A stretch of DNA of 64,000 nucleotides, from contig NZ_CP092915.1 in assembly GCF_022557175.1 (NCBI RefSeq), forward strand, positions 3,348,001 to 3,412,000. Reading direction: 5' to 3'. The notes beneath the pieces are model-generated. The model saw nothing but the letters and a program-made list of their open reading frames with translations. It searched no databases and had not been told where the DNA came from. Origin of the DNA: Mycolicibacterium sp. YH-1 (GTDB lineage: Bacteria; Actinomycetota; Actinomycetes; Mycobacteriales; Mycobacteriaceae). Positions 9,473 to 64,000 of the stretch are shown here, piece after piece. The position numbers and the translations under genes are program-made. How positions within the stretch are numbered: position 1 is the first letter of the stretch; each line of letters begins with the position of its first letter.

Positions 9473-9948
9473 CGCGCGAACTTCGCCGCATAAAGGGATT
9501 TCATCTCCGCGGCATACTCGGCGACCGGCCCTTCGGCGACCACGCCTGGGGCCACGGTCGAAATCGGCAGCGGTGCAACGGGGGACGGATCCGATCCCCA
9601 CTCGGCGAGCCACTGGGTCAGCTGTGCCGATGAGGTCGCGTAGACGATGCGTCCGAGCCCAACCCAGGCGTGCGCGGCCGAGCACATCGGGCAGTGTTCA
9701 CCCGAGGTGTAGACGATCGCGCTCGCCCGCTGCGTCGGGGTCAGGTGGCTTGCCGCCCAGCGGGCGATCTCGAACTCGGGGTGACGGGTGGCGTCACCGC
9801 CCTGCACTCGGTTGCGATCCTCGAAGAGGACTCGCCCCTCGGCGTCCACCAGAATCGAGCCGAACGGTTCGTCGCCCGCCTCGAGGGCGATGCGGGCGAG
9901 ATCGACACAGCGTCGCAGCCGCTTGAGATCGTCACCGCCGATGGCCAC
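9469..9948 (-). CDS. Nucleoside deaminase (CDA/TadA fold)
   Basis: This is a zinc-dependent deaminase of about 159 residues that probably acts on a free purine or pyrimidine base or nucleoside. The zinc site is complete: His56-Pro-Glu58 (RHPEFE) and Cys86/Cys89 (EHCPMCSAA). The N-terminal segment EAGDEPFGSILVD is typical of guanine/cytosine deaminase relatives of TadA. A GTG at 9948 is the best start; codons upstream run into the preceding gene's end. The substrate cannot be told from sequence. Confidence 0.83.
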   Translation of the reverse strand: MAIGGDDLKRLRRCVDLARIALEAGDEPFGSILVDAEGRVLFEDRNRVQGGDATRHPEFEIARWAASHLTPTQRASAIVYTSGEHCPMCSAAHAWVGLGRIVYATSSAQLTQWLAEWGSDPSPVAPLPISTVAPGVVAEGPVAEYAAEMKSLYAAKFAR

Positions 9949-9986
9949 AGCGGGTGAGTCTACGCGGACACCTGAGCGGCGAGGGC

Positions 9987-11675
9987 TCAGCAGCAGCCGT
10001 CGGCGACTTCCAGCCGGCAGGCGCACGAGGCCCGGATCGGCGTGTCGGCGCGGGCCGCCGCCACCTCGAGCTGCCGTTCGATGATGCCCGCCTCGTCATC
10101 GCGGCCCAGCCGTCGCAGGCATTCGTGGTAGCCGTGCAGGCTCCACACGTTGCCCGGGTGCTGACAGCACCGCGCCAGCGTCGGGTCCAGCCCGAGATCC
10201 TCGGCGTAGACGCGGGCGGCCTCCTCGACGTGGCCCTGCTCGAGAAGCAGCGCGCCGAGGGCGTGTCTCGTTGGGGTCATCCAGCCCCACGGTTCGTCGT
10301 ACGGGAGCTGGTCGTCCAGCGCTGTGGCCTGGCGCAGCGCCGCGAACGCCGCATCGAAATCGCCCTCCCGGTAGGCGATCTCACCGTCCAGCATCGCCGC
10401 GGCGACGGCCAGGATGTCCCGGCTGGTGTTGTTGAACAGGTAGCGGCTGTCCGGGACACGCGCATATGCGGCGGCGAAGGCCTCCCGTTCGGCCCACGCC
10501 TTGGCCATTTCGCCCTTGGCGGCCTGGGCGACACCGCGGCCATACCGGACGATCGCGGTGGTGGTGCAGTACAGGGCCTCGTCAAGGGGTAGGGGTTCGG
10601 CGATCAGCTCGTCCCACTTGCCGAACCGAACCAGAACGTGAATCCGCAATCCCACGAATGCCTCTAGCCAGTCGGCCATCGGCGGTGACTCGACGGCCAG
10701 CAGCTCGGGCGTCAGCTGTGCCGCGAGTTCGTCGGCGGCCTGCAGGGCGAGCCGGAACTGGCCCTCGAACATCGCCGAGTAGACCACGAAGTGAAGATCG
10801 TGTGCCCGGTACAGCGAGTAGAAGTTGAGCGGCCCCTCCCGTTCGACGAACCGGCGATCCGCTTGTACAGCAATCTGATTCGCGATGATCGAGCTGCGAT
10901 AGTCGCCACACAGCACGTCGATGTGGCTCGGCATGTGCTGCAGATGGCCCGCGTCGGGGACCAGTCCGCGCAACAGGTCGGCGGCGGGTAGCGCGGTCTC
11001 CGGGTGAGCCGACATCTCCATTGCGTGCAGGTAGAGATGCAGGATGCCGGGATGTTCGCGACCTGCAGGCGTGGCGAGCGCGGTGTCCAGGATCCGTACC
11101 GCCTCGACAACCCGGGAACCAGGAGCGGGTTCACCGGTCCCGGTGTCCCACAACGCCCATGCCGTGACGTTGAGCAGTGCGTCGGCCGCCAGCGCCTGCA
11201 CGTCGATGTCGTCGGGATGGGCCGCCGCCAGCGCCGACATCGCCTCGGCGTAGCCGGCGTGCCCCGCGGTGAGCGCGGCGGCGTCGGCGGGATCAGCGGT
11301 GGGGAAGCGCGCCGACAGCGCTTCGATCAGCTCGAGTTCCAGCACCGAAGCCCGGCCCCGGCGGGCCTGGTCCAGCTCGTCGCGTGCCCGGGCCAACGAG
11401 TCGGCCAGGTCGACGGGATCGAAGGCCTCCCAGGCCTTGTTGTAGTTCGGGCCGACCGCATACGCGATGCCCCAGCGCGCAATCGCGAGGCCGGGGTCCA
11501 GTGCCAGGGCGCGCTCGAAACACCGAATCGACTCCTCGTGGTTGAACGCGAACGCCCACACCATGCCTCGCCCGAACCACACCTGCGCCTCGGGCGAGGT
11601 GGTGTCAACCGGTCGGTGATGTGACCCGAGGTCGTAGTACGGCTCCATCTCGATCGGTGCTGCTGTGATCGTCAT
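9987..11675 (-). CDS. Tetratricopeptide-repeat protein
   Basis: A soluble protein of about 562 residues built of helical hairpin repeats. Clear TPR units are seen near residues 30-65 (FAFNHEESIRCFERALALDP), 150-190, 395-445 and 490-530. It starts with the conserved MEPYYDLGSHHRPV-like segment shared by mycobacterial relatives and ends in a Cys-rich tail (CAC and GCC). Function is unknown; TPRs normally serve protein-protein contact. The ATG at 11675 or one nine codons later are both plausible. Either start lies inside the 3' end of the upstream membrane-protein gene. Confidence 0.8.
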   Translation of the reverse strand: MTITAAPIEMEPYYDLGSHHRPVDTTSPEAQVWFGRGMVWAFAFNHEESIRCFERALALDPGLAIARWGIAYAVGPNYNKAWEAFDPVDLADSLARARDELDQARRGRASVLELELIEALSARFPTADPADAAALTAGHAGYAEAMSALAAAHPDDIDVQALAADALLNVTAWALWDTGTGEPAPGSRVVEAVRILDTALATPAGREHPGILHLYLHAMEMSAHPETALPAADLLRGLVPDAGHLQHMPSHIDVLCGDYRSSIIANQIAVQADRRFVEREGPLNFYSLYRAHDLHFVVYSAMFEGQFRLALQAADELAAQLTPELLAVESPPMADWLEAFVGLRIHVLVRFGKWDELIAEPLPLDEALYCTTTAIVRYGRGVAQAAKGEMAKAWAEREAFAAAYARVPDSRYLFNNTSRDILAVAAAMLDGEIAYREGDFDAAFAALRQATALDDQLPYDEPWGWMTPTRHALGALLLEQGHVEEAARVYAEDLGLDPTLARCCQHPGNVWSLHGYHECLRRLGRDDEAGIIERQLEVAAARADTPIRASCACRLEVADGCC

Positions 11676-12714
11676 GAGTCGCACGATAATTCAGCGCTGA
11701 CCGCAGCGCGCCCGATCGGACGACGGCGGCACCGCCGGCGAGCAGGCAGCCGACGGCCGCCCAGCAAAGGAGTGTGACCAGCGGTGTCATCGCGCCGTTG
11801 CCGCCGAAGTACTGGACGCTGCGCAGCAGTGCGACTCCGGAGCCCTGCGGCACGACCGCGTTGAGCGCGGTGTAGAAGCCCGACAGCAGCGGTTTGCCGA
11901 CGGGGCCCGCCGCCGCCGCGTTGCCGACGATCACCAGAAACATCGTCAGCACGGCGGACGCCACCGTCCCGAACGCGGCGGCGACACCGGTGACGGCGCC
12001 GCCGACGGCCATGGCGTAGAGGAACAGTGCACCGAACACCGACCAGGTGTGCCCGGTGAGCGCGCCGAGTATGACGTCGGTGTAGAGCGTGACGCCCCCG
12101 GCGAGCAACGCCGCGAACGCGACGAGGCTGAGTGTGCGCCACACCAGTGTCGATGGCGCGTGCACACCGCCCATCATGCGGCCGAACAGCGTGGCACCCA
12201 CCGATGCGCCGATCGAGAGAAAGATGACCGCGTAGAACACGACTGTGCCCTGTGGGTCGGCGGTCGTGCTGGGGGCCACGTCGGTGACGCTCGCGGTGAG
12301 GCCTGCGTTCTGGGCGATGCCACGACCGACGGTCTCCGCGGCGTTGGCGACGCTGCGTCCGCCTCCACCCGCGACGTAGACGTCCATGTGCCCGTCCGGG
12401 TTCAGGACGAATGCCGCGTCCGCCGTGCGCTCGTAAACCGCGTCGCGTGCTGCAGTCGCATCGGTCACCGGGGTGACCTCAAGGGTGTCCTGAGCCCGAA
12501 TGCCGTCGACGACCTGCTGTGGGGCGGCCACCGCGACGGACAGATGGTGCAGCGTCGGCTTGGCGAAAGCGCCTGAGTAGCTGGCGATCATGGCGATGAC
12601 GACGACAGCCAGCGCCGCCATGACCAACGCCACGTTGCGGACGTCGGCACGCGACGGGGTTGTCCTGGTCGCCGTTTCGGCGGCAGGGCGAGGGGGAGTG
12701 CGGTGCTTGCCCAC
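11605..12714 (-). CDS. Multispanning membrane protein, ABC-2/DUF3533-like
   Basis: A 369-residue integral membrane protein of YhgE/SNG1/ABC-2-permease-like architecture. It has one N-terminal TM (about residues 27-47), an extracytoplasmic domain of about 110 residues, then about six hydrophobic helices between 160 and 330. Such proteins are usually export permeases or their partners. It lies 13 bp downstream of a TetR regulator, suggesting a self-contained regulator-exporter unit. Its last 24 or so codons overlap the start of the TPR gene in another frame, an unusually long same-strand overlap of about 71 bp. Confidence 0.75.
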   Translation of the reverse strand: MGKHRTPPRPAAETATRTTPSRADVRNVALVMAALAVVVIAMIASYSGAFAKPTLHHLSVAVAAPQQVVDGIRAQDTLEVTPVTDATAARDAVYERTADAAFVLNPDGHMDVYVAGGGGRSVANAAETVGRGIAQNAGLTASVTDVAPSTTADPQGTVVFYAVIFLSIGASVGATLFGRMMGGVHAPSTLVWRTLSLVAFAALLAGGVTLYTDVILGALTGHTWSVFGALFLYAMAVGGAVTGVAAAFGTVASAVLTMFLVIVGNAAAAGPVGKPLLSGFYTALNAVVPQGSGVALLRSVQYFGGNGAMTPLVTLLCWAAVGCLLAGGAAVVRSGALRSALNYRATHDDHSSTDRDGAVLRPRVTSPTG

Positions 12715-12727
12715 GATGGACCTTTCG

Positions 12728-13315
12728 TCAGTTCATGGTCGCGGCGCGAGTGAGCAGTGCGTCGACGGTGTCGAGCGCAGCGGTCACCCTGCCACGAAGA
12801 TCGGTGGTGTGCTCGGAGCCCGGAGGCTCCTCCATCCAGGACCGCAGAACCTCCTGGAAGCCGCCGACGAGGAATCGACTGACCGCCTCCGGCGAGAGAC
12901 CCGGAATGGAGCCGACGACGGGCATGCCCTGGCGGGCAAGCTCCTCGCAGGCGGGCAGGAGTTCGGCGCGGAATGCCGCCACCACCCGTTGTGTCACCGC
13001 GCTGGGCACGACGTTGTGATACATCGCGCGGTGTTCGGCGGCCAGGTCGAAGATCCGCAGGATCCGTGACCGGGGCTCGCCGTCGATATCGGCGGTCGCA
13101 GCGGCGAAGGTCAGGGTGAACGCCGAGGCGACCGCATCGTCGCGGTCAGTGAAGTGCTGGTAGAAGACCTGCCTGCTGACTCCGGCACGCGCCACCAGAT
13201 CGGCGACGGTGATCTGGTCGACGGGTCGTTCATGGGCCAGTGCGAATGCCGCGTCCCGCAACAGGGTGCGGACGCGTTCGGCGCGGGGGTCCACGCTGTG
13301 CGTTCGTGCGGCCAT
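12728..13315 (-). CDS. TetR-family transcriptional regulator
   Basis: A 195-residue repressor. The N-terminal HTH is clear (LLRDAAFALAHERPVDQITV, then VARAGVSRQVFYQHFTDRDD), followed by an all-helical ligand domain. The start at 13315 (MAARTHSVD) is where similarity to the family begins; longer readings are non-coding in character. It is the first gene of a unit with the ABC-2-like membrane protein, so the likely target is its own promoter and that transporter. No clear palindrome was found in the 150 bp upstream. Confidence 0.88.
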   Translation of the reverse strand: MAARTHSVDPRAERVRTLLRDAAFALAHERPVDQITVADLVARAGVSRQVFYQHFTDRDDAVASAFTLTFAAATADIDGEPRSRILRIFDLAAEHRAMYHNVVPSAVTQRVVAAFRAELLPACEELARQGMPVVGSIPGLSPEAVSRFLVGGFQEVLRSWMEEPPGSEHTTDLRGRVTAALDTVDALLTRAATMN

Positions 13316-13468
13316 GGGGAGAGCGTAGGGAAGTTCGTAGACATCTGTCCACGAACTAGGAGATGATCTCGGCCACCGGTCGCGCCACGCTGTGACGCAG
13401 CGCTCACCGCGCACCGCTCGCGCGAGACGTGCGGGAACTCGGTCGCGGTCTCGCTTCGTTGCGGGCTG

Positions 13469-14113
13469 GTGACCATCGTGCGAGCAACCCTGCCGGACCT
13501 GCCGACTCAAGCGAATCGACTCATCGATCTTGGGGTGCACCGCCTCATGGGATGGCCGGCGAACCGGCTGCGCGCCGCCGCCGAACCCATTGGGGGACAG
13601 GCGTCGCTGCTCGTCGTTCACCCCGATCTGGTGCCAGCCTCGGCCCTCGCACCGCTGGTGTGCCACGACGACAAGCCCGGGTTCGTGGTCGCCGACATGA
13701 CCGATGTCGACGAGTTCACCTCGGTGGCACCGCTGCCTGATTCGCCGCTGTACCTGATCGACGATCTCGATCGGGGCGATGACATGGCCAACTGGAGCCC
13801 GGACGAGGCGGCCCCCGCCATTGCCTCGGCAGGCCGGACCGCCCTCACGCTGACCGAGGGCCTGCACTGGCTGCTGCAGTGCCCCGACGTCCTTGAGCGT
13901 GGGCACTGCTACATGACCATCGGCTCACGCAAGCGCAAGCCCACCGGCGCACTCGACACCCGAACGCCGGCGATCTGGATCAGCAACGGCACCGGTCGCG
14001 ACGGCTCCGACCGGCGTGATGCGCCGAAGGTGGGGTGGTGCTGGGCAGGCAACCGGCACACCTGGCTGGGATTCGCCTCGGCATCCACCCGCACGCCGGT
14101 CGCGCAGGCGTGA
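13469..14113 (+). CDS. DUF5701-like conserved protein
   Basis: A 214-residue soluble protein of unknown function, found mainly in actinobacteria. It is recognisable by LPDLPTQANRLIDLGVHRL at the N terminus, the central GFVVADMTDVDEF segment, the TLTEGLHWLLQCPDVLERG block and the C-terminal W-rich GWCWAGNRHTWLGFASA. A GTG start at 13469 is used. It precedes the thioesterase gene, but a KstR-like operator lies between them, so they are probably separate units. Confidence 0.65.
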   Translation: MTIVRATLPDLPTQANRLIDLGVHRLMGWPANRLRAAAEPIGGQASLLVVHPDLVPASALAPLVCHDDKPGFVVADMTDVDEFTSVAPLPDSPLYLIDDLDRGDDMANWSPDEAAPAIASAGRTALTLTEGLHWLLQCPDVLERGHCYMTIGSRKRKPTGALDTRTPAIWISNGTGRDGSDRRDAPKVGWCWAGNRHTWLGFASASTRTPVAQA

Positions 14114-14127
14114 TTCGACACCACTGC

Positions 14128-14141
14128 TAGAACGTGTTCTA
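14128..14141. promoter_or_regulatory. KstR-like operator
   Basis: TAGAACGTGTTCTA fits the KstR consensus TnnAACnnGTTnnA at every fixed position and is part of a 16-base near-perfect palindrome (14127-14142). It lies only 8 bases before the thioesterase start. In known mycobacteria KstR represses sterol-degradation genes and is released by a sterol CoA-thioester intermediate. Confidence 0.8.
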
Positions 14142-14149
14142 GTGCAGCC

Positions 14150-14767
14150 ATGGTTGAGTTCACCGTTGACAACCTCAGTGCGGCAGAGGTCGAACGCCTC
14201 CGCGGTATCTATGGACCACTGGCCGAGTCGGTCCGCGAACTCATCGACGCAACCATTCGCACCGAGGTCGACGCCGATACCGTTGCGACCGCGAGGGCCG
14301 AGATCGAGGCAGCCACCGCCAGGCTGCGCGACCGCCAGATCGACGGCCCCTACGGTGTGCGGATTTCGGAGAATGGCCTGATGCCCTGGGGGAACCCGGT
14401 GATCGGGCTGCGTAATCCGATCGCGCCGCCGCTGGTGATACACCGGGCACCCGACGGTTCGGTGTTCTGCGACTTCCACCTGGGCGGCCCCTATGAGGGC
14501 CCGCCCGGGCACGTCCACGGCGGGATCTCGGCACTGGTCCTCGACCACCTGTTGGGTGAGGCTGCCAGCGATGGGACATCGCCGCGCCTGACCGGCACCA
14601 TCTCGATGCGCTACCTCCGCACCACCCCACTCGGCGATCTGCACGCCGAGGCGAGAATCGTTCGCACCGAGGGGATCAAGACCTACGCGGTCGGCCAGCT
14701 CTCGGACGCCGACGGCGTCACCGTGGAGGCCGAGGGGGTTTTCATCACGCCGAAGTGGGCCCGCTGA
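14150..14767 (+). CDS. PaaI/hotdog-fold thioesterase
   Basis: A 205-residue acyl-CoA thioesterase-like protein. The C-terminal half is a hotdog fold with the PaaI-type signature GHVHGGISALVLDHLLGEAA, followed by the strand MRYLRTTPLGDLHAEARI. The N-terminal 90 residues are helical and include an acidic coiled stretch. The KstR-like operator immediately upstream suggests it hydrolyses or edits CoA esters during sterol or related lipid breakdown. The exact acyl substrate is unknown. Confidence 0.85.
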   Translation: MVEFTVDNLSAAEVERLRGIYGPLAESVRELIDATIRTEVDADTVATARAEIEAATARLRDRQIDGPYGVRISENGLMPWGNPVIGLRNPIAPPLVIHRAPDGSVFCDFHLGGPYEGPPGHVHGGISALVLDHLLGEAASDGTSPRLTGTISMRYLRTTPLGDLHAEARIVRTEGIKTYAVGQLSDADGVTVEAEGVFITPKWAR

Positions 14768-14784
14768 CCGCTGTCCCCGCGGGA

Positions 14785-16770
14785 TCAGGGCGCGCTGGGC
14801 GTACTCGCTGCGATCACCACCAGTTGGTCGGTCACGGTCTCGATCTCGGCCGCCAGAATCCGCGCCCACGCATCGTCGGCAGCCGCTAGCTCTGCACGCG
14901 CACGATCGGTGGCGACCGTCAGCGCGGCGACATCCACCGTCCACGCCGAACCCGCGGTCTGCGGGTCGCCGCGCAGGGCAGCGACATACTCGTCCACGGT
15001 GTTGATCAGGTCGTGACTGAACTCGGCGGGACGATGCGGGGGCAGGCTCTCCTCGAGCGCTGCGCATGCCGCGGTCACGGCGTTGAGCCCGGCGCGATAC
15101 TCACGCAGCCACCTGCGCAGATGACGCTCGTCCATGGCGCCGACAGCCGCCGCGGCCTCGAACGCAGCCCTGGCCCGGTACGCACGCTCCCACGCCGCCG
15201 CAACGATGTCATCGGACCCATCGTGCACCGACGCCCCGATCACCATTGCCGCGTAATCGATCTCGGCCTTGAGTAGTTCGCTGGCACGCTGCCGCAGCCG
15301 GACGGCGGCCTGATCCGGCAACACGACGTGCGCGAGCACCGCCAGCATGCCGCCGATCAACGTCGCGGCGACGCGGTCGCTGACCGAGGCAAGACCGTCC
15401 ACCCCGGCGATGTCGATGAGGAACACGATGGCCGCGGCCAGTGCCGCACTCACCGCCAGATAGCCAATCCCCGATGCCAGGTAGGCGACACCGAGCAGGG
15501 CCACCGCCAGCGTGGCCGCGGCCATACCGGTCGGATGCACCATCAGGGCGATGACCGTGGCGATCACGACGCCGATCACGTTGCCGCCGACGCGTCCCAC
15601 GCAGCGCGTGTACGTGTGCGCGGTCTCGGGGCGCAGCACCATCACCACGGTCAGCGGGATCCAATAACCATGCGCCACCTCCGCGAAACGCGCGATCGCT
15701 ACGCCGCAACCGGCGGCCACCGCGAGCCGTACGGCGTGCCGCAGCACCGGTGACTCCTTGGTGAGCTGCCCGCGGGCCATGGCGATCGTGTTGGCGAGCA
15801 CGCCGAAGAAGTGCGACCGCGGTAACTGAGCCAGCTCGTTCGGCCGCGGCCCGAACTCGTTGAATCTGAGTGTCGCGGCCTCGCGCAGTTGGTCGGAGAG
15901 TCGTTCCACCAGTAACTGGTCAGACTCACCCGTCTCGGCGGCGACTGCCTCAAACCTGGTGATGGCGTCCTCGGCGGAGCCGATCTGCTTGGGCCGTGCG
16001 ACGGCGTCCAACACCTCACCGGCGGCCGTCAGGATCCGTGTGCGGGCGTCGCCGTCCATTGTCCGTCGTGCGATCGCCGTCATGGTCGCCGCGATCCGTT
16101 CGGGCAACCTGTACCAGGCGCGGTAGGCAACCGGGTGGTGGCTGGCCTGCCTGTCGGTGAGGGCGAACGCATCGCGCAACTCCTGCAGCGGTTCCTCGGT
16201 GAACTGGGCTGCGGGGTCCTCGGCGAGGCTGCGAGCGTCGACCGCCAGGGATACATACGCGCGAGTCAGCGCCTCGCGCTGGATCCGCCAGCGCCGTCTC
16301 GGCCAGATCGCGATGAGTGCGGCCTGCGCCACGCCGCCTGCCACGGCGAGAGCGGCGGTGCCTCCTATTGCCGCCCAGGACGGCGTGATCGGCGGCGAGA
16401 TGACCAGAAGGCCGCTCGCCGCCGCCGCGATCAGCCCCGGGTTCGAGCCTGCGGCCCATGTCATGCCGGCCCAGAAGCACCACACGGCGACGACGACCGC
16501 GAACAGCACCGAGTGCGCCGATGTGGCTGCGCCAAGCAGCACCGCGACGCCCAACGCGATCGAGACGCCAATGACCATCGGGATTCTGCCGCGTGGGCTG
16601 TCCCGAAGCGCCGTCGCGCCGGCGATCGCAGCGGCTCCGGCTGCGGCCGTTGCCCCGGCGGCACCCACTGTGGACAGACCGATTCCGGCCACCACGAGGA
16701 CACCCAGCAGACTGCGAATCACCGCGCCGGGGTCCGTCAGGTACTGCCTCCGGGCCAGGCCCTTGATCAC
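14785..16770 (-). CDS. FUSC-family membrane protein
   Basis: A 661-residue inner-membrane protein of the fusaric-acid-resistance/YccS type. It has two groups of five to six TM helices (about residues 15-140 and 330-470), separated by a soluble helical domain and followed by a C-terminal helical domain with RQRASELLKAEIDYAAMVI. Relatives export aromatic acids, but the substrate cannot be inferred. The GTG at 16770 is chosen because further upstream the frame lies opposite a real plus-strand gene. It is divergent from the 16834 operon with about 63 bp between starts. Confidence 0.82.
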   Translation of the reverse strand: MIKGLARRQYLTDPGAVIRSLLGVLVVAGIGLSTVGAAGATAAAGAAAIAGATALRDSPRGRIPMVIGVSIALGVAVLLGAATSAHSVLFAVVVAVWCFWAGMTWAAGSNPGLIAAAASGLLVISPPITPSWAAIGGTAALAVAGGVAQAALIAIWPRRRWRIQREALTRAYVSLAVDARSLAEDPAAQFTEEPLQELRDAFALTDRQASHHPVAYRAWYRLPERIAATMTAIARRTMDGDARTRILTAAGEVLDAVARPKQIGSAEDAITRFEAVAAETGESDQLLVERLSDQLREAATLRFNEFGPRPNELAQLPRSHFFGVLANTIAMARGQLTKESPVLRHAVRLAVAAGCGVAIARFAEVAHGYWIPLTVVMVLRPETAHTYTRCVGRVGGNVIGVVIATVIALMVHPTGMAAATLAVALLGVAYLASGIGYLAVSAALAAAIVFLIDIAGVDGLASVSDRVAATLIGGMLAVLAHVVLPDQAAVRLRQRASELLKAEIDYAAMVIGASVHDGSDDIVAAAWERAYRARAAFEAAAAVGAMDERHLRRWLREYRAGLNAVTAACAALEESLPPHRPAEFSHDLINTVDEYVAALRGDPQTAGSAWTVDVAALTVATDRARAELAAADDAWARILAAEIETVTDQLVVIAASTPSAP

Positions 16771-37441: not shown

Positions 37442-37493
37442 GCTACGAAAGGATGTGCCGGGCCCGGTGTGCGGCTGCCCGGACAAAACGCCG

Positions 37494-39065
37494 ATGACCG
37501 CTCCCGTGTGGATGGCGCTGCCCCCAGAGGTGCACTCGACGCTGCTCAGTGGGGGGCCGGGCGCCGGACCGCTCCTGGCGGCAGCCGGCGCATGGAGTTC
37601 ATTGAGCGCCGAGTACGCCGCGGCGGCCGCTGAACTCAGTGCACTGATGGGCACCGTGCTCGGCGGATCCTGGACAGGGTCCAGCGCCGACCGGTACTTC
37701 GCCGCACACACGCCCTACCTGGCCTGGCTGTCTCAGGCGAGCGCCAACAGCGCCGTCGTGGCACTCCAGATCGAGGCGGCGGCCGCGTCCTACTCCGCGG
37801 CATTGGCGACCATGCCCACCCTCGCCGAGCTGGCCGCCAACCACACCACTCGCGGCGTGCTGGTGGCGACCAACTTCCTGGGCATCAACACGATCCCGAT
37901 CGCGCTCAATGAGGCCGACTACGCCCGGATGTGGGTGCAGGCCGCCACGACCATGAGCATCTACCAGGCCATCACCGGGGTAGCGGTGACATCAGCACCG
38001 CACACCGCACCGTCGCCGCTGCTGCTCGCACCCGGTGTCGGCGAGGCGGGCACCGCCTCGGCCACGGGGATGCAGTCGAGGGCGCAGATGAGCGCCGCGG
38101 AATCAGCTTCGGCGCTGGCCTTCGCGGATCCGATCGAGGAGCTGCTGTCAGGCTCCGAGCACTTCCTCAGCATGTACCGAGCGCTCAAACAGTTGGTGAC
38201 CAACCCGATCGGCACCATCTATCAGATCATCGTCGACTTCGCGACGAGCCCGTCGACCGCGATGGTCACCTGGCTGCCGTTGATGTACGTCTTCGCCTAC
38301 GCGGCGACCTTCGCCGTGATGGGCACGCCGATCTACGCCGCGGTCGCGGGCGCTGCGGCCGGGGTGGCCCTCCCGCTGGCTCTTGGGTTGGCCGGGATGG
38401 CCCAGGCCTACAACATCCCGATCGATGAACCCGCGCCGGTCGTTGCCAGCCCCGCCGACCAGCCGAGTGCGGTTGCGATGCCAGGTACACCGGCCAGTGC
38501 GGCGAGTGCCGCCGCACCTGCCGCGCCTGCGCCCACGGCCAGCGCAGCGGCACCGGCACCGGCGCCGACGCCCGTGCCCGCCGGTGCCGAGGGTGTGGGG
38601 TACGCGATCCGCGGCGATGGGCCGGGCTTCGGCTTCGGCCCGCCGATGCGCAACAGCGCGGGAGCGGTGGCGCACGCCCCGAACAGTGCGGCGGCTGCGG
38701 TTGGCGCGGCCGCGTTGGCCTCCAGCCGTGCGAAGTCGAAGGCGCGCAAGCGGCGCGGCGCTGCCGCCAAGGAACGCGGCTATCGCTACGAGTTCATGAC
38801 CATCGACGATGACATCCCGACGCCATCCGGTGAGGGGAAGCCGGCAGCCACCACCGCATCGGGTCACGGCGCAGGGAGACTTGGACTCACCGGCGCCGCC
38901 ACGAAGCTCACCGGCACCGCCACGAAGTCCGTGGCCACCGCCCCCGGCGGGCTGACAACGCTGGCCGGTGACCCGTTCGGCAACAGCACGACACTTCCGA
39001 TGTTGCCCGGAAGCTGGGGCGTCGGCGACGAGGGCGAGGAGTCGTCGGGCGGCCGGACCGACTAG
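37494..39065 (+). CDS. PPE-family protein
   Basis: A 523-residue PPE protein, secreted or cell-surface in mycobacteria through type VII systems. The N-terminal domain begins [15 protein letters not shown] and has the canonical WxG-like [10 protein letters not shown] and [37 protein letters not shown]. The C-terminal part has hydrophobic helices (about 250-310), a long Ala/Pro region and a basic/acidic ending that includes [13 protein letters not shown]. An in-frame GTG 13 codons upstream is possible. No PE partner or ESX genes are beside it. Two iron-box motifs upstream suggest IdeR repression, as for PPE37 of M. tuberculosis. Confidence 0.92.
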
Positions 39066-51779: not shown

Positions 51780-52532
51780 ATGAACTTGCGTACAGCGCTA
51801 TCGCGTGTGCTGGCAGCGGCGGGGACCGCAACCCTGCTACTCGGGGCCTCGACGGGTATCGGGGTCTCGGCGGTGCCGCAGCCGACCCCCGTAGCGAACA
51901 TCTCACCGGGCCCCGGTGATGTCGTCGGCGTCGCTGCCGCGGTGACGGTCACCTTCGCGGGGCCGGTGGCCAACCGCGCCGCGGTCGAGCGCAGCATCGG
52001 GTTCTCTTCGACCGACACCCCCACGGGCACGTTCTCGTGGCTCGACAACGACGTCCTGCAGTGGACGCCCAAGGAGTTCTGGCCCGCACACTCGGAGATC
52101 ACGGTGTCCGTCGGTGGCGCCAAGACCAGCTTCGAGACAAGTGCGGCGGTGGTCGGCGTCGCCGATATCGACGCGCACACCTTCACGGTGAGCATCGATG
52201 ACCAGGTCGTCCGCGAGATGCCGGCATCGATGGGCAAGCCCAAGTTCCCGACGCCGACGGGCACGTTCTCCGTGTTGGGGAAGGAGAACGTGGTCGTGAT
52301 GGACTCACGCACCATCGGTATCCCGCTGAGCGACCCGGAGGGTTACAAGCTCACGGTCTACGACGCGGTTCGCGTGACCTGGGGTGGCGTCTACGTGCAT
52401 GGTGCGCCGTGGTCCACGGGGTCGCAGGGCTACGCCAACGTGAGCCACGGGTGCATCAACCTGAGCCCCGACAACGCCGCGTGGTACTTCGACAACGTCA
52501 GCATCGGGGATCCGATCATCATCCGCGCGTAG
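51780..52532 (+). CDS. ldtA: L,D-transpeptidase, LdtA/LdtMt1 type
   Basis: A 250-residue exported enzyme that makes 3->3 peptidoglycan cross-links and is inhibited by carbapenems. A signal peptide of about 30 residues is followed by an Ig-like domain (GDVVGVAAAVTVTFAGPV) and the YkuD catalytic domain. The active site is complete: His in YVHGAPWS and Ser-His-Gly-Cys-Ile-Asn in YANVSHGCINLS. GVADIDAHTFTVSIDDQVV and MDSRTIGIPL closely match M. tuberculosis LdtA (Rv0116c). GGAGG precedes the ATG. Confidence 0.94.
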   Translation: MNLRTALSRVLAAAGTATLLLGASTGIGVSAVPQPTPVANISPGPGDVVGVAAAVTVTFAGPVANRAAVERSIGFSSTDTPTGTFSWLDNDVLQWTPKEFWPAHSEITVSVGGAKTSFETSAAVVGVADIDAHTFTVSIDDQVVREMPASMGKPKFPTPTGTFSVLGKENVVVMDSRTIGIPLSDPEGYKLTVYDAVRVTWGGVYVHGAPWSTGSQGYANVSHGCINLSPDNAAWYFDNVSIGDPIIIRA

Positions 52533-55878: not shown

Positions 55879-57118
55879 AACCCTGGCCGCCGGTGTAGTC
55901 GACCTGCCAGTGCTTGATCCCGTTGAGCCAGCCCGACCGGAGCCGCTCGGGCTTGGCCAGCGGGGTCAGGTCGGGCATCTCGTCGGCGATGGCGTTGAAC
56001 ATCAGATCGATGGTCATCCGGGCCAGATTCGCACCGATGCAGTAGTGGGCGCCCGTGCCGCCGAAACCGACATGCGGGTTCGGGTCGCGCGTGATGTCGA
56101 AGGTGTACGGGTCGTCGAAGACGTCTTCGTCGAAGTTGGCCGAGCGGTAGAACATCACGACCCGCTGGCCCTTCTTGATCGGCACACCATCCAGCTCGGT
56201 GTCCTCGAGCGCCGTGCGTTGAAACGACGTCACCGGGGTTGCCCACCGAACGATCTCATCGGCCGCCGTGGCGGGTCGCTCGCGCTTGAAGAGCTCCCAC
56301 TGGTCGGGGAAGTCGGTGAAGGCCATCATTCCCTGGGTGATCGAGTTGCGGGTGGTCTCGTTGCCCGCGACCGCCAGCAGGATGACGAAGAAGCCCAGTT
56401 CGTCGTCGGAGAGTTTGTGCCCGTCGACGTCGGCTTGCACGAGTTTCGTGACGAGATCCTCGCCAGGGGCGTCGGCGCGTTCGGCCGCAAGCTGCATACC
56501 GTAGGTGATGAGTTCGACCGACGCGGAGATCGCGTCGTTGTTGGCGAACTCGGGATCCATGTCACCGACCATCTGGTTCGACCAGTGGAAGAGCTTCATC
56601 CGGTCCTCCTGCGGCACCCCCATCAGGCTGGCGATGGCCTGCAGCGGAAGTTCGCAGGAGACCTGCTCGACGAAGTCGCCGTAACCCTGCGCCGCCGCCG
56701 TCTCGACGATGCTCTTGGCGCGCTCCCGTAGGTCGTCGCGCAGCCGCTCGATCGCGCGTGGGGTGAACGCCCGCGAGATGATCTTGCGCAGATGGGTGTG
56801 GTGCGGCGCGTCCATGTTGAGCAGGACGAACTTGCCGGTGTCGATCTGCTGCTGCACGGTGCCGTCCTGGTACCGCGGAAGGGCCGTCTTCTCCAGGCTG
56901 GAGAAGACGTCGCTTCGGCGCGACACCTCCTTGACGTCCTTGTGCTTGGTCACCACCCAGAATCCGCCGTCACCGAACCCGCCGACACCGTCGGGCTGCT
57001 CGTTCCACCAGATCGGTGCGACCTTGCGCATCTCGGCAAGTTCCTCGACCGGCAGTCGCTCGGCGTAGATGTCGGGATCAGTGAAGTCGAAACCGGGTGG
57101 CAAGTTCGGGGTGGCCAT
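55835..57118 (-). CDS. cyp125: Cytochrome P450, CYP125 type (steroid C26 hydroxylase-like)
   Basis: A 427-residue P450. NLPPGFDFTDPDIYAERLPV at the N terminus, FVEQVSCELPLQAIASLMGV and FHWSNQMVG are shared with M. tuberculosis CYP125A1, which starts cholesterol side-chain oxidation at C26/C27. The I-helix is VAGNETTRNSITQGMMAF, ExxR AADEIVRWATP and the haem loop FGGTGAHYCIGANLA. It lacks the usual KstR-regulon neighbours, so it may be a second CYP125 paralogue. A degenerate KstR-like sequence lies about 95 bp upstream. Confidence 0.9.
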   Translation of the reverse strand: MATPNLPPGFDFTDPDIYAERLPVEELAEMRKVAPIWWNEQPDGVGGFGDGGFWVVTKHKDVKEVSRRSDVFSSLEKTALPRYQDGTVQQQIDTGKFVLLNMDAPHHTHLRKIISRAFTPRAIERLRDDLRERAKSIVETAAAQGYGDFVEQVSCELPLQAIASLMGVPQEDRMKLFHWSNQMVGDMDPEFANNDAISASVELITYGMQLAAERADAPGEDLVTKLVQADVDGHKLSDDELGFFVILLAVAGNETTRNSITQGMMAFTDFPDQWELFKRERPATAADEIVRWATPVTSFQRTALEDTELDGVPIKKGQRVVMFYRSANFDEDVFDDPYTFDITRDPNPHVGFGGTGAHYCIGANLARMTIDLMFNAIADEMPDLTPLAKPERLRSGWLNGIKHWQVDYTGGQGSKDPVAQQASPQRA

Positions 57119-57951: not shown

Positions 57952-58300
57952 TCAGTGCGTGAGGACCGCCTCGGTGACGGCTTCGATTCTGGCTGGCACG
58001 TGCCTGTGCCACGGAGCCCCCGCGTAGGCGTCACGCCAACCCACTGACGTCAGGGCTTTCAGCGCGACGCCTGGGGTGTGTGAGTGTCCCTCTGCGTCAA
58101 CATGGTCCCGACCAGAGACCTGGCCTGACCCCCGTCGACGATCAGGACGACGTGGAAGCCCGTGCTCCGCTTACCTTCTCGCCGGGCCTCGACTAGACCG
58201 GACTCCTGCTGGGCCCGGGTCTCGGCGCGAGCTCGCTCGCGTGAGCCGATGGGCCGTCGCCCGGTTGTGACCCACGGCAGCGAGAACGACGTCGCCGCGT
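57952..58300 (-). pseudogene. Frameshifted remnant of an unidentified gene
   Basis: The reverse strand from about 58150 to a TGA at 57952-57954 reads protein-like (VALKALTSVGWRDAYAGAPW then HRHVPARIEAVTEAVLTH) with strong GC3. Upstream, another frame is also protein-like (SGLVEARREGKRSTGFHVV). The two are joined only by a frameshift near 58130. I cannot name the family; the remnant suggests gene decay beside the tubulin-like operon. Confidence 0.4.
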
Positions 58301-58763: not shown

Positions 58764-59432
58764 ATGGCATCAAACAGAACCCGCGCAGGGCCACTGGATC
58801 CGTTCGGCGGCCCCACCTTCAACGGTTCGCAGCCCGCTCGAGGGCCGGGATCTACGTACACACCAAGGCCACCGGATGTCGACGCCAAAACGCTGGCGAC
58901 GTTATCGATTGTCTTTGCGTTCGTGTTCGCACCCGTAGGTGCGGTACTGGGCCACGTGGCGCTTTCCCAGAGCAAACGGGGGACACGACAGGCCCGCGAC
59001 CGTGCGCTGGTTGGCTTGTCGCTGTCGTACGCGTTCATCCTGTTCGCAGTCATCGCGCTGCTGCTGTGGGCGATCACCGCTCAATCCGGCTCGTCATCGA
59101 CGGCGGCCCAACCCACCGGCATGGCACCTCCCACACAGGCGGCACCCATCCCGAAGGTCGAAACAACAGTCGTCACTCGGGCACCGCCTGTCCGCAGAAC
59201 GGTGAGTGTCAATGAGTTACACGCGGGCGACTGCGTCGAGATTCAGCAGACCAAACCTGACCCGAATAACGCTGATACCCAATTGATCAAGATTTACCCA
59301 GTGAACTGCCAGGTTCGGGATGGCGTGTTCCGTGTCGACGTGGTCTCATCGTCGACCAACCCCTGCATTGATGAGTACTTGGCCAACCCGGGAAACACGA
59401 TCGTTGCCTGCATCACGAAGTTCAAAGGTTGA
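58764..59432 (+). CDS. DUF4190-like membrane protein with Cys-bearing C-terminal domain (1)
   Basis: A 222-residue protein. The N-terminal 45 residues are Pro/Gly-rich and contain a DPF tripeptide at residues 12-14. Two TM helices (about 47-68 and 78-100) flank the basic loop SQSKRGTRQARDRA, the DUF4190 arrangement. A Thr/Pro linker leads to a C-terminal domain with four Cys (GDCVEI, VNCQV, NPCIDE, VACITK), likely disulfide-bonded outside the membrane. The positive-inside rule would put both ends outside, so the side of the DPF segment is uncertain. It is paralogous to the next gene. Confidence 0.75.
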   Translation: MASNRTRAGPLDPFGGPTFNGSQPARGPGSTYTPRPPDVDAKTLATLSIVFAFVFAPVGAVLGHVALSQSKRGTRQARDRALVGLSLSYAFILFAVIALLLWAITAQSGSSSTAAQPTGMAPPTQAAPIPKVETTVVTRAPPVRRTVSVNELHAGDCVEIQQTKPDPNNADTQLIKIYPVNCQVRDGVFRVDVVSSSTNPCIDEYLANPGNTIVACITKFKG

Positions 59433-59472
59433 TGCCGATGTACGGTGACCACGCGTTGCAGAGGCGCCTACG

Positions 59473-60156
59473 ATGACTGTCGCCGGTGATCCGTTCCGAC
59501 AGGTGCCGGCCGATCCGCCCAGTCCGCCCAATGGACCGGCTCCCCACACGTATCTGCCGCAGCCGCAGCCGTGGCCGTTCGGCCCGACCGGCGGAAACCC
59601 TTATCCGCCAACGGAACCACCCCACAACACACTCGCAACACTGTCACCTGTCTTCGCCGTCGTGGCGCCGCCAGTTGGCGTGATTCTCGGTCATCGGGCC
59701 CTGATGCAGATACGCCGGTCAGGTGAGAGGGGCCGCACGGCAGCCATCTGGGGCGTGGTCATCGGTTATGTGTTGACTGCGGCACTGCTGGCCGGATTGA
59801 TCCTGTGGGCCATCACCGATCCATCCGGAAGATCCGAACCGGCGCCGGGCCCGGGCACCGTCGGAGCTGATCCGCCGCTGCGGGCCCCGCCTCCGGTGGT
59901 GGTGACTTCAGTGGCGCCACCGCCCGTCAGCCCCAGGGTCAAGCTCGACCTGACGCAGGTGACCGTCGGCACCTGCGCGGAAATTCAGAAGCGTGACATC
60001 GGCGCCGATGCGCTAGATCTGTTCGCGGTACCTTGCAAACACCGCCAAGGGGTGTACACCGTCGTCGCCCGCGTTGCCAACGACTTCGACTGCCAATCCA
60101 CCTACATCGCAGCCCCGCCCGATCACTCATTCGCACTGTGCCTCAACGAGTACTGA
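59473..60156 (+). CDS. DUF4190-like membrane protein with Cys-bearing C-terminal domain (2)
   Basis: A 227-residue paralogue of the previous protein, separated by 40 bp. It has DPF at residues 6-8, a Pro-rich lead, two TM helices (about 58-78 and 95-115) around a basic loop (QIRRSGERGR), a Pro linker and a domain with Cys in GTCAEIQKRD, VPCKH, FDCQS and LCLNEY. The pattern 'GxC-EIQ... PxxC... C... C' is shared with protein 1. It ends one base before the next start, so the genes are coupled. Confidence 0.75.
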   Translation: MTVAGDPFRQVPADPPSPPNGPAPHTYLPQPQPWPFGPTGGNPYPPTEPPHNTLATLSPVFAVVAPPVGVILGHRALMQIRRSGERGRTAAIWGVVIGYVLTAALLAGLILWAITDPSGRSEPAPGPGTVGADPPLRAPPPVVVTSVAPPPVSPRVKLDLTQVTVGTCAEIQKRDIGADALDLFAVPCKHRQGVYTVVARVANDFDCQSTYIAAPPDHSFALCLNEY

Positions 60157-60157
60157 C

Positions 60158-60691
60158 ATGCTAGATCCGTTTGATTTCAGCGACTTCGGTTCAACGCCAA
60201 CAACAGCCGCAGCGCTTGCGTCCGACGCCAGGCCGCCGGGAGGGACCGCCGGAGTAGAGGCACCGCGGCAACGCACAAACCTCGACACTGGGTTCGATCC
60301 GTTCAGCGATGCACCGCCCCGACAGGCAAAGCCCCACGACGTGTTCCGCCCGACCACACCGTGGGCTACCGAATCGACCAACAGCCTCACCGTGGCCCGG
60401 CCGCCGCTGGCCCTATTCGGTCTCGCCATCGCACTCGCGACAGCGGGTGCGGTGATCGCCGGTGTATGGGGCGATGCGCTTGCGGCCGCGGGTGTCGGCT
60501 GGCTTCTGGCCGGTCCGTTGGCGATCGGACTGCTTGCCATCTACACCCTTGTCGACACCCGACGCCGCACCAACGCCGTCTATTCGGCGCCGAGCTGGAC
60601 CGGTGCCGCGTACTGGACGGCGGTGACGGTGTGCATGGCTGGAATTGCAATCAGCGCATGGTATCTCGCGCTGTGGGCAGGTAGGCGGTAG
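60158..60691 (+). CDS. Three-TM protein with DPF motifs at a cytosolic N terminus
   Basis: I recognise no family for this 177-residue protein. The N-terminal 80 residues are polar and carry DPF at residues 3-5 (MLDPFDFSDF) and again at 47-49 (GFDPFSD). TM helices follow at about 84-103, 109-132 and 149-173. A basic segment (DTRRR) follows TM2, so the N terminus is probably cytosolic. The ATG at 60158 is one base after the previous stop; the VWA gene starts five bases after its own stop. Confidence 0.68.
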   Translation: MLDPFDFSDFGSTPTTAAALASDARPPGGTAGVEAPRQRTNLDTGFDPFSDAPPRQAKPHDVFRPTTPWATESTNSLTVARPPLALFGLAIALATAGAVIAGVWGDALAAAGVGWLLAGPLAIGLLAIYTLVDTRRRTNAVYSAPSWTGAAYWTAVTVCMAGIAISAWYLALWAGRR

Positions 60692-60696
60692 GGCGG

Positions 60697-63420
60697 ATGA
60701 ACACGATGCGCAACAGCCGACACCGAGCCGGGCGGCTGTTGCGCTGGTTGTCGGCGGCCTTCCTTGCCGGGGGGCTCGTCCTGCTGGGTTCACCTGTCCC
60801 TCTCGCACATGCCGACGCGGGTGGCGCGAACCGATACGGAGGGTGCCTGGCAGCGCAGAAGCGCGGTGATCTTCTGCTGCTCTTCGACGAGTCGAGCAGC
60901 CTGCAGTCGACCGACGCCAAGGCGGCGCGAGTGTCGGCGGCGAACTATCTCATCCAGACGCTGGGCGCATACGCCGACCAGGTCGGCGCAGACCTCGACG
61001 TCGCGGTGGCCGGTTTTGCAGACAGCTATGTGCTGCATGAGAGTTGGACGAAGCTGAGCGCTGCGACGACCGGTTCCATTGCTGACAAGCTGGCCCCAGA
61101 GGCAACGCGTAACACCGGTATCGACACTGATTACTGGCTCGCCCTCGACGGTGCGCGCCAGACGTTGGCATCCCGGGAGAGCGGCCCCGGCAATGCCGAC
61201 CGATGCCAGGCCATCGCTTGGTTCTCCGACGGCAAGATCGATTTCACGGCGCGGCCGGTGGTTAAGCCGTATGCACCCGACGTCAGTCTGGACAGCGCGG
61301 GCGGTATCGGCGAGATGGTGCGCAGAGCCACCGAGGGGATCTGCAGGGCCGGAGGGGTGGCAGATCAGATCCGCTCCCGTGGCATCGTGATGTTGGCGGT
61401 CGGCCTCAGTGGCAATAGTGCTCCAGGGGATTTCGACACGATGTCGGCGATAGCCACCGGAAAGGGTGTCCTTGGGACGGACTGCGGCAGCATCACCACG
61501 CCGGTGCCGGGTGACTTCTATCCGGTGTCCAACCTCGACGACATGTTGTTCGCGTTCGACGCACTGAACCCCGATCCCGGGATCACGCGGCAGGGGCCCG
61601 TGTGCCACCTGCGGGTGTGTCCAGAAGCGCGCCACGACTTCGTGCTCGACCGCTCCATCAAGTCTGTGAACATCCTTGGCTCAGGTGGCGTGCCCGGCAT
61701 CGAGCCCTACCTGATCTCTCCGTCCGGTAAGACGTTGGAGCTGCCCAAGAAGCCTGGCACGACCGATGTCCAGATAGGCGGGACGCCGGTGCAATACGAG
61801 TGGCAGTCCGACTCCGCGCAGACCATCTCGATTCGTAACAGCGGGCCAGAGTGGGCGGGCAGATGGGCCGTCGTCTACGTCGACACCACAGGACAGCACC
61901 CGGACGCGGTATCCAAGGTCAACATCCACATCACCACCGACATCTACCCCGCGCTGGCCAACGCGGATCAAATCGACTGGCGCAGCGGGCAGGTCGTGAA
62001 GCGATTGACGTTCGGTCTTGCCGATGGTCAGGGTCACGCACTGGCTCCGACCGATCTGGCGGGCACGGCGAGGATGTCGGTGGCGCTGGTACCCGACGGT
62101 GGAGCACCCATACCGCTTGTCGAGTCCGCGCCGAAGTCCGATATCGCCAAACCGGTCGACGCCAACTTGACCGACGTCAAACCCGGCCGTGCCGAGTTGC
62201 GGATGTCGCTCGTCGTCACCACCGCGCCGGCCACCGGTCGCAATGGTGAACAGATCGCGCCAGGCACGATGTTGTCGCCGCAGAATGTCGAGGTCCCGAT
62301 CCAGATCCTGCCCAAGGCGAATCTGCCCAGCCCCGGTAGCCGTATCGACTTCGGCACCATGGAGGGGGTCAAAGGGGCGACGGCGTTGTTACCGATCACC
62401 GGGCCGGGCTGCGCGTGGATCTCGCCTTCTGAAGTAGCCAAAGTCAGAGCGACGCCCGACGGCGTCGGTGCCCCGCACTTCAGCTCCGACGCCAGCAGTC
62501 CTGACAACTGCTTGAAGGTGCAGGCGGGTCAGACCGTGAACCTGCCGGTCACACTGCGTACCGACCATGACGGCCACGGCGGACTCGACGGCAGTATTGG
62601 GGTACACGTCGCCGCGCTTGCCGACCCGGACGGCCCACAGGTGATTGACGTGCCGTTCTTCGCCTCCCTGACCCATCCCTTGAGCACCACGAACTTTCTG
62701 GTGGTGCTGATCGCCGCCATACTGCTCGGACCGGGCATACCACTCGCCCTGCTATACGCCGCCAAGTGGCGGGTGAGCAGAATACCGCCGAAACCTCTGC
62801 TGGCTGAGCGCATTCCGGTGGTAGTGAACGACGACGTTGTCCAGCGTGACGGCGCACCGTTCGCAATGGCCGATACCGACCTGGTGCACCCCGTGCCAGG
62901 CCTGGCGCGCGCCACCCGCAGATTGAGCGTGCTCGGCACGACGTTGATCGCGACGACCGGCAGAAGCCCGTTCGGCAGTGGACATGTTCGCGTAGAGGCC
63001 GACGGCCGCATCAGCACTGGATCCGCGCTTCCCGGCACCGACCGCAGCGGCCTGCACGCCGTGTTGCCACTGGCGGTGCACAACAACTGGGTGGTCCTGC
63101 ACGACCCCGACGGGCCTGCCGGTGAGGCGGAGGTGCTGCTGCTGGTCGGCGGGCGCACCGACAACGCTGCCCGTCAGCGTATCTACGACGATGTGGCCCG
63201 CAGGCTTCCCGAGCTCTTGGCTGCACTGCGGCTGCGTGCGGTCGAAGCCGGTGTGGCTCCACCGCACGACCCAACGTCGCACTCATCACCGTTCGGTGAA
63301 ACGGCCGCAGCGGCAACGCAAGCCGATCCGTTCGGTGCCGATGTGACCGCGATGTCCCCAGCCATCCCGCGGTGGCGGTCCGATCCCGATCCGTTCGACC
63401 CGTTTGATGGAGGACCCTGA
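60697..63420 (+). CDS. Membrane-anchored von Willebrand factor A-domain protein
   Basis: A 907-residue protein with a signal peptide (about 1-40) and an extracytoplasmic VWA domain with an intact MIDAS start (LLFDESSSL: Asp64, Ser66, Ser68), ending near residue 290. Beta-rich domains follow, then one TM helix at about 667-690. A cytosolic tail of about 215 residues follows; it contains DPF at 877-879, 898-900 and 901-903 (DPDPFDPFDGGP at the end). MIDAS domains bind a ligand through a metal, and here the binding face would be outside. Its stop shares a base with the tubulin-like start. Confidence 0.85.
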   Translation: MNTMRNSRHRAGRLLRWLSAAFLAGGLVLLGSPVPLAHADAGGANRYGGCLAAQKRGDLLLLFDESSSLQSTDAKAARVSAANYLIQTLGAYADQVGADLDVAVAGFADSYVLHESWTKLSAATTGSIADKLAPEATRNTGIDTDYWLALDGARQTLASRESGPGNADRCQAIAWFSDGKIDFTARPVVKPYAPDVSLDSAGGIGEMVRRATEGICRAGGVADQIRSRGIVMLAVGLSGNSAPGDFDTMSAIATGKGVLGTDCGSITTPVPGDFYPVSNLDDMLFAFDALNPDPGITRQGPVCHLRVCPEARHDFVLDRSIKSVNILGSGGVPGIEPYLISPSGKTLELPKKPGTTDVQIGGTPVQYEWQSDSAQTISIRNSGPEWAGRWAVVYVDTTGQHPDAVSKVNIHITTDIYPALANADQIDWRSGQVVKRLTFGLADGQGHALAPTDLAGTARMSVALVPDGGAPIPLVESAPKSDIAKPVDANLTDVKPGRAELRMSLVVTTAPATGRNGEQIAPGTMLSPQNVEVPIQILPKANLPSPGSRIDFGTMEGVKGATALLPITGPGCAWISPSEVAKVRATPDGVGAPHFSSDASSPDNCLKVQAGQTVNLPVTLRTDHDGHGGLDGSIGVHVAALADPDGPQVIDVPFFASLTHPLSTTNFLVVLIAAILLGPGIPLALLYAAKWRVSRIPPKPLLAERIPVVVNDDVVQRDGAPFAMADTDLVHPVPGLARATRRLSVLGTTLIATTGRSPFGSGHVRVEADGRISTGSALPGTDRSGLHAVLPLAVHNNWVVLHDPDGPAGEAEVLLLVGGRTDNAARQRIYDDVARRLPELLAALRLRAVEAGVAPPHDPTSHSSPFGETAAAATQADPFGADVTAMSPAIPRWRSDPDPFDPFDGGP

Positions 63421-64000
63421 TGCGACGATTCTTGGTAGTGGGTTGTGGTGGTTCGGGTGGCGCGACGCTGTCCTACATGATGGACCAGCTGCGCTCCGAA
63501 CTGCACACCGCAGGCGTCGACAAGCTGATTGCCGGTTGGCAATTCGTTCACATCGATGTGCCCAGCGCGGCAGATCCCGGCCCGGACGGGTTGGCGAACG
63601 TGGCCATGCAGGGTGGCACGTACGTCGGGTGTGGCCCGCGGGGGAGCAGCTACTCGATTCTCGACGGCGCGCTTTCGGCGCGGCTCGCCGCAGGAACCGC
63701 ACTGGACGCCATCGCGACGTGGGCGCCGCGCCAGCCGGATCAGGTGACCAATCCGATCTCGGCGGGTGCCGGCCAGTACCGGGCGATCGGGCGAATGATC
63801 ACGCTCAGCAAGGCCGGTGAGATCCGCAGCAAGCTGCAGTCGGCCACCGATGAGCTCTTCCGCGTGGAGACCATGTCACAGATGGCGTCGCTGGATGTCC
63901 CCGGAATGGGGCGGTTCGACCCGAACCAGCCGCCACTCGTGTTGGTGGTGTCTTCGATGGCCGGCGGTGCAGGTGCGTCGATGGCACTCGATGTGTGCCG
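63420..64000 (+). CDS. Tubulin-like GTPase-domain protein (5' part, continues beyond window)
   Basis: The first 193 codons are visible. It begins with the glycine-rich nucleotide loop LVVGCGGSGGATL (residues 5-17). At about 178-187 it has SSMAGGAGAS, which aligns with the tubulin/FtsZ signature GGGTGTG, so it belongs to the bacterial tubulin-like (Tubulin_2) group rather than FtsZ. It is translationally coupled to the VWA gene by TGATG. Its role is unknown; it could polymerise or act as a switch under the membrane proteins upstream. Confidence 0.75.
   Translation, partial: MRRFLVVGCGGSGGATLSYMMDQLRSELHTAGVDKLIAGWQFVHIDVPSAADPGPDGLANVAMQGGTYVGCGPRGSSYSILDGALSARLAAGTALDAIATWAPRQPDQVTNPISAGAGQYRAIGRMITLSKAGEIRSKLQSATDELFRVETMSQMASLDVPGMGRFDPNQPPLVLVVSSMAGGAGASMALDVC

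Follow-up and report, generated by a model that had tools for sequence, protein, structure and literature searches.

A GAP1-less Tubulin_2–vWA–DO-GTPase operon in Mycolicibacterium sp. YH-1 and a candidate docking motif in the tails of its membrane proteins

How might a tubulin-like protein in the cytosol be coupled to a sensor outside the membrane? This question is raised by an operon at the end of a 64,000-nucleotide stretch of the Mycolicibacterium sp. YH-1 genome (the window; positions 3348001-3412000 of a 7.27-Mb assembly of one contig, listed as 100% complete). Its first five genes, here called A to E, encode two DUF4190 membrane proteins, a three-transmembrane (3-TM) protein, a protein with an extracytoplasmic vWA domain and, running past the window end, a Tubulin_2 protein. 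The original prediction knew of no characterised mycobacterial pathway with this layout; it is in fact not new, having been predicted in two published analyses (PMC2875224 and PMC7159879), and predictions that link a tubulin homologue through the membrane to an extracytoplasmic sensor date back to 2010. What is apparently unreported is a docking-tag-like motif shared by the tails of the membrane proteins. The reading that we favour from the sequences, with the chances evenly balanced, is that the operon encodes a membrane-tethered tubulin machine, the membrane subunits of which would be gathered via one exchangeable aromatic tail motif.

Gene content and order of the operon

All window genes of the operon lie on the + strand. 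A (58764-59432, 222 aa) and B (59473-60156, 227 aa) match DUF4190 (PF13828, cut-off 35 bits) with 35.5 and 45.8 bits, respectively, as had been proposed, and hydropathy is in line with a membrane protein for A; the C-terminal region of B weakly resembles LppU/SCO3897 (NF049863, E=8e-4, below cut-off). C (60158-60691, 177 aa) is a 3-TM protein with no Pfam family. D (60697-63420) has, judged by hydropathy and charges only, a signal-like N-terminal segment, a vWA domain, one TM segment (residues ~658-690), a cytosolic part and a C-terminal tail. E starts at 63420, and the window (63420-64000) holds the first 193 of its 1176 codons. The spacings of 40, 1 and 5 bp, followed by one base common to D and E, are exactly those originally described. 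The gene set was incomplete, as four more co-directional genes follow in the sequence fetched past 64000, giving an operon of nine genes in which E to I are separated by 2-bp gaps or overlap. In the coordinates of locus L002 (plus 57000 for window numbering), E occupies 6420-9950; F (9953-12571, 872 aa) is a TM-hairpin protein and H (14520-15449, 309 aa) a second vWA-like protein, both with no accepted Pfam family; G (12574-14520, 648 aa) is FnIII-like (fn3 E=0.1, below cut-off); and I (15446-16603, 385 aa) is a zinc-ribbon DO-GTPase (DO-GTPase2; PF19993, 33.6 bits) carrying CPRC and CPVC, with the P-loop GxxxxGK[ST] present in 74/74 aligned I proteins. Searches of the nine proteins against NCBIfam and PADLOC added nothing firm.

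The vWA match of D falls under the Pfam cut-off (VWA_2 E=6e-4, 20.9 bits versus 27), though its metal-ion-dependent adhesion site (MIDAS) proved intact as predicted: conservation reaches 80 of 81 aligned D proteins at each of three positions (first Asp, loop-2 Thr and loop-3 Asp), the remaining row being a gap. E is a full-length Tubulin_2/FtsZl1-family protein (PF13809, 1.4e-47, 163 bits versus a cut-off of 27), and the possibility of a truncated or non-tubulin protein was rejected. The T1 (GxGGSG) and T4 (GGxGAS) motifs are present in 84/84 aligned E proteins, and the C-terminus is a conserved peptide following a disordered stretch. Comparison of an AlphaFold2 model of the L099 orthologue (74% identical to E) with CetZ, TubZ, FtsZ and tubulin indicated a complete two-domain tubulin fold, interrupted between its two halves by a long helical insertion. 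An apparently complete, interrupted tubulin fold fills a gap in the published descriptions. A sequence search for solved relatives of E and F gave nothing meaningful. For F, an alpha-pore-forming protein was dismissed (best Foldseek E=0.07, probability 0.21, rmsd >20, with only a common long-helix arrangement), and a relationship to LeoBC was too weak (PADLOC E=0.032).

Gene order was compared in relatives comprising the best 80 of 127 matches from a scan of named genomes, to which we assigned 15 genus labels; the counts rest on profiles grown from mycobacterial proteins. C, D and E are consecutive in 67 of the 68 named loci whose sequence extends 4.5 kb or further upstream of E, so the pairing of vWA and tubulin genes that the original prediction drew from one genome is conserved. 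E-F-G-GAP1-H order was found in 69 of the 70 loci having both G and H, and the remaining one (L137) differs solely in that H and I are listed in swapped order, the I open reading frame (ORF) being over-extended there. Upstream of C, mycobacteria were found to have DUF4190 genes of type A or B, and in two Microbacteriaceae loci this place holds a distant DUF4190-like gene that lacks the motif described below. Among f14-family matches (L080-L084, L086) and split-tubulin matches (L091 and others), the profiles detect no more than the GTPase, or E together with it. Two neighbouring frames that each match only part of Tubulin_2 were observed at L026/L027, L059/L060, L074/L078 and L075/L077, possibly resembling the two-tubulin theme described for firmicutes.

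An aromatic motif in the tails of the membrane proteins

The tails of A, B, C and D contain one, one, two and three copies of DPF, at residues 12-14 of A (nt 58797-58805), 6-8 of B (59488-59496), 3-5 and 47-49 of C (60164-60172 and 60296-60304) and 877, 898 and 901 of D (63325-63333 and 63388-63405). The N-terminal start of C is near-invariant, reading DPFDFSDFG in the window and [DNS]PFDFS[DE]FG in 25 of 26 mycobacterial C tails. Of 299 control genes that a crude gene finder picked from the window genome, 3 N-termini and 3 C-termini contained one [DN]P[FW], and none contained two. Across Mycobacterium, Rhodococcus, Williamsia and Gordonia, the motif is 23-60 fold over shuffles in the A-D tails; I lacks it, and for most of E, G, H and GAP1 its frequency does not rise above chance. 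The charge rule puts the tails of C and D in the cytosol and gives an ambiguous answer for those of A and B. The main text of PMC2875224 contains none of the words DPF, linear motif, tail, disordered and DUF4190, and a term search of PMC7159879 finds none of DPF, linear motif and DUF4190.

The tag differs by lineage: DPF in Mycobacterium and Rhodococcus, NPF in Gordonia, GFG in many Corynebacterium, GW in the f4 family and a W-rich version in Nostocoides. C and D nevertheless tend to agree within a lineage. Over 18 genus-level units, three of which are single genomes, the F/W contexts of the two tails scored 0.495 when matched and −0.009 when mismatched (0/20000 permutations, which take units as independent, true only roughly), with rank correlations of 0.82 for the W fraction and 0.73 for the fraction of F/W preceded by P. 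Uncorrected agreement reached 23/20000 within 16 Corynebacterium loci and 2/20000 among 14 loci of other genera; corrected for composition, it was 0.208 versus −0.011 over all units (1/20000). These counts cover the 79 of 84 labelled loci that have both tails (L092, L094, L102, L105 and L136 are without C or D). L107, L149, L150 and L153 carry no genus label and enter no tail count; the same-genus loci L029-L042 and L044-L047, which largely repeat named loci, stand outside the statistics; and L028, which repeats L122, was retained, leaving one duplicate in the Mycobacterium counts.

Similar motifs were also observed elsewhere. Downstream of I, 14 named mycobacterial loci (between L093 and L140) contain extra DUF4190-like genes, many of which bear DPF/NPF repeats in the N-tail (for example, DPFGGNPFGQNPFG in L093). 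The terminal stretch of E itself carries NPF/DPF in Gordonia (L128, L137) and in L085. In Corynebacterium gallinarum, the protein upstream of C (L158 5948-6358), which we take to be TM2-like, starts with an NPF-bearing tail. One of the three control C-tails with the motif belongs to a predicted protein of 536 aa encoded at window 37455-39062 (+).

Based on these data, we propose a plausible scheme for the tubulin machine. The extracytoplasmic vWA domain of D would bind a metal-dependent ligand in the envelope as the input. C and D, and perhaps A and B, would use the aromatic motifs of their cytosolic tails to dock onto a single soluble component that they have in common; the membrane subunits would thereby be gathered and would be exchangeable as long as they bear the tag. 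The DO-GTPase I together with the vWA-like H may form the switch. At the docking patch, E would then assemble in a GTP-dependent manner; its C-terminal peptide would offer a site for adaptors, F would provide a further anchor in the membrane, and the output would be a local change of the membrane or envelope. Polymerisation of E is a sensible expectation because its modelled fold appears complete, though interrupted. More tentatively, and by analogy with the reading of DPF/NPF motifs by endocytic adaptors in eukaryotes, Actinobacteria may use an exchangeable tail code, in which a short aromatic tag labels the membrane subunits that belong to one system and a soluble component of the tubulin machine reads this tag; we lean slightly away from this generalisation. 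Under such a code, tag and reader would co-evolve, giving each lineage a private version, and DUF4190 and TM2-like modules would join by gaining the tag. The shared motif makes the system testable, as it names member membrane proteins and residues and predicts lineage-private specificity.

Several observations weigh against the machine as drawn. The receptor of the tails is only a postulated shared soluble component. The motif is not wholly confined to the A-D tails: the middle part of D is enriched (37 versus 12.4), and F has an excess in its N-terminal (6 versus 0.5) and C-terminal (7 versus 1.5) 60 residues over 54 proteins. By the charge rule, a basic loop suggests that the N-tails of A and B lie outside, which would not hold if the long first hydrophobic segment formed a re-entrant hairpin. 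D tails of Pseudonocardia and Microlunatus contain no [DN]P[FW], and the C and D tails of L089, L157 and L158 are unlike each other. The fraction of F/W preceded by G is not significantly correlated between C and D (rho 0.41, p 0.09), and the composition-corrected agreement becomes weaker without the four DPF/NPF genera (209/20000) and is not significant within the 16 Corynebacterium loci (1098/20000). For E, the best Foldseek match of the model has E=1.2e-3, with none at E<=0.001, and the T7 loop was not mappable. The window copy may be drifting, at the tip of E and at two P-loop positions of I. Finally, no experimental study of such an operon was found in the open-licence literature searched, which leaves out most subscription journals and in which PMC2875224 and PMC7159879 were the only papers seen to concern this operon.

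Instead of being ligands of a folded receptor, the tails could be self-associating stickers that, in the manner of FG repeats, form a condensate bound to the membrane. We regard this as doubtful, though it accounts for part of the same evidence: several aromatics are spaced along Pro/Gly/Ser-rich tails, their identity as F or W depends on the lineage and tends to match between C and D, and the E tails of some Gordonia carry NPF as well. The tripeptide context exceeds what composition-driven stickers need, given its enrichment over shuffles in the DPF/NPF genera, an argument that is weaker in the GFG/GW genera; and the near-invariant start of C in Mycobacterium looks like a docking site.

Possibly mobile surroundings and a missing GAP1

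The original prediction suggested a mobile or defence locus beside decayed gene fragments. Tubulin_2 is patchy, occurring in 24/248 genomes of the genus, 14/298 of the order and 17/396 of the phylum (overlapping samples, each including the window genome). An upstream-flank protein is shared by 20/24 locus pairs with E at least 90% identical, 20/144 at 70-90%, 17/777 at 50-70% and 0/1008 below 50%; as upstream flanks are rarely common between species, the block seems to move. The fragments are partly explained: window 57972-58108 is a 137-bp direct-repeat copy, 86% identical and in the same orientation, of the 3' end of a molybdopterin-oxidoreductase gene (assigned by Pfam) beyond the operon and outside the window, where the other copy lies at L002 17107-17243. 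Integration at gene ends is typically marked by such duplicated gene ends. The repeat may mark the left edge of an inserted block, and insertion via this repeat is suggested. The patchy occurrence, the rarely shared flanks and the direct repeat together make the surroundings resemble a mobile block.

Other signs of mobility were negative. None of the seven fetched relatives with the molybdopterin-oxidoreductase gene presents an empty site joining the immediate left flank of the window operon to its right flank; the right flank was matched in 7/7, and other matches were short (window 52247-52520 at 68-70% in 4/7, a 68-bp piece in 1/7 and the repeat copy itself in 2/7). No integrase was noticed by eye among the listed ORFs, and four small edge ORFs had no Pfam match above cut-off. 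The operon gave no signal of foreign composition (GC 66.3% versus 66.9% for the window), and the window contains no tRNA, so tRNA-linked integration was not seen. Between the DO-GTPase and molybdopterin-oxidoreductase genes lies a 175-aa ORF (L002 16620-17147, −) with hydrophobic stretches, repeated HPDIWP and no Pfam match above cut-off, overlapping the right direct repeat. Upstream, 47 bp at window 56874-56920, inside a P450-like gene, match their own reverse complement at 85%.

Such surroundings favour the proposal of Kaur et al. 2020 (PMC7159879), in its passages on the DO-GTPase/GAP1 theme, of an anti-phage or conflict system; for the window operon, the vWA and FnIII proteins would sense the invader, the DO-GTPase would set a threshold, and the tubulin would assemble as an effector disabling the infected cell. 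We consider this unlikely here. Patchiness and mobility argue for it. Over the 15 genus labels, the genes from C to I hardly vary in content or order; this near-invariance and the lack of an effector domain recognised by Pfam in the nine proteins, several of which have no known family, argue against a classical effector-swapping conflict system. PADLOC, moreover, returned one sub-significant match, that of F to LeoBC, with 8/9 proteins having no match at E<=1, and GAP1, a core part of the proposal, was not found. Of the suggestion of a mobile or defence locus, the mobile half fits the surroundings, and the defence half stays a prediction.

In 70/70 named relatives, G and H are separated by a gene that matches the GAP1 profile; the only one tested, in L033, was confirmed by Pfam (GAP1-N2 1.2e-20, GAP1-M 3.2e-11). 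The stop codon of G overlaps the start of H in the window genome, and a GAP1-N2 (PF20013) search of the complete genome gave no match, the same search being positive in a Corynebacterium glutamicum control, in which Tubulin_2 was detected as well. Is this copy, then, a decaying, non-working remnant that lost GAP1? In a quick, midpoint-rooted tree of E, L108 and L122 form the sister group of the remaining mycobacterial copies, and the window copy comes next, on a long branch (0.29), its place being unsure because the fork is drawn open. The tip of E reads VVLSRGVMF, against an IPxGGTF ending in 28 of 31 mycobacterial rows. In the P-loop of I, the window copy has T and P at two positions where 73 of 74 proteins have A and R; the latter changes fit loss of a GTPase partner, and drift explains them equally well. 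We nonetheless think a remnant improbable, as all nine ORFs are open and tightly packed with a clean G-H overlap, the nucleotide-binding residues, MIDAS residues and tail motifs are retained, and GAP1 is also much shortened in L108 (423 aa), L122 (393 aa) and six Corynebacterium loci (489-594 aa). A naturally GAP1-less operon raises the question of whether GAP1 is dispensable or regulatory.

Comparison with known systems

Eukaryotic endocytic DPF/NPF motifs are bound by AP2 appendages and EH domains. They use the same tripeptides as the A-D tails, likewise repeated in disordered tails that gather membrane factors; any likeness would be convergent and is unproven, and we know of no homologous receptor, no search for one having been made. 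CetZ, TubZ, FtsZ and tubulin are ~10-15% identical to E, which differs from them by the long insertion between its halves, with the catalytic loop not mapped.

The closest published relatives are themselves predictions. In its description of these operons, Makarova & Koonin 2010 (PMC2875224) combined FtsZl1, vWA proteins, GTPases and TM proteins into a predicted membrane-remodelling system that includes an actinobacterial clade. The window operon has in common with it an FtsZl1-type Tubulin_2 protein, a vWA domain with MIDAS, TM proteins and a diverged P-loop GTPase with a Cys-rich part. A protein kinase or OmpA is frequent, not universal, in those operons as described; the nine window proteins have no Pfam match to either. 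Where that study was able to identify neither T6-H7 nor similarity to the tubulin C-terminal domain, the model of the E orthologue aligns over both halves of the fold.

In the relevant passages of Kaur et al. 2020 (PMC7159879), actinobacterial neighbourhoods of tubulin and DO-GTPase/GAP1-N2 with membrane vWA and FnIII proteins form a predicted conflict system, and its zinc-ribbon DO-GTPase2, single tubulin gene, membrane vWA and FnIII-like protein recur in the window operon. H, F, C and the DUF4190 pair do not figure in those passages. GAP1 is there one of two conserved components and is lacking here; the theme includes FnIII-repeat proteins, one fused to HRDC, and G has its sub-threshold fn3 match and no Pfam match to HRDC. 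The theme also has variable effector components; in the window operon Pfam recognised no effector domain, several proteins being of no known family, and the core order is fixed among the relatives. Taken together, the operon is of the actinobacterial FtsZl1/Tubulin_2-vWA-DO-GTPase type, in a variant without GAP1.

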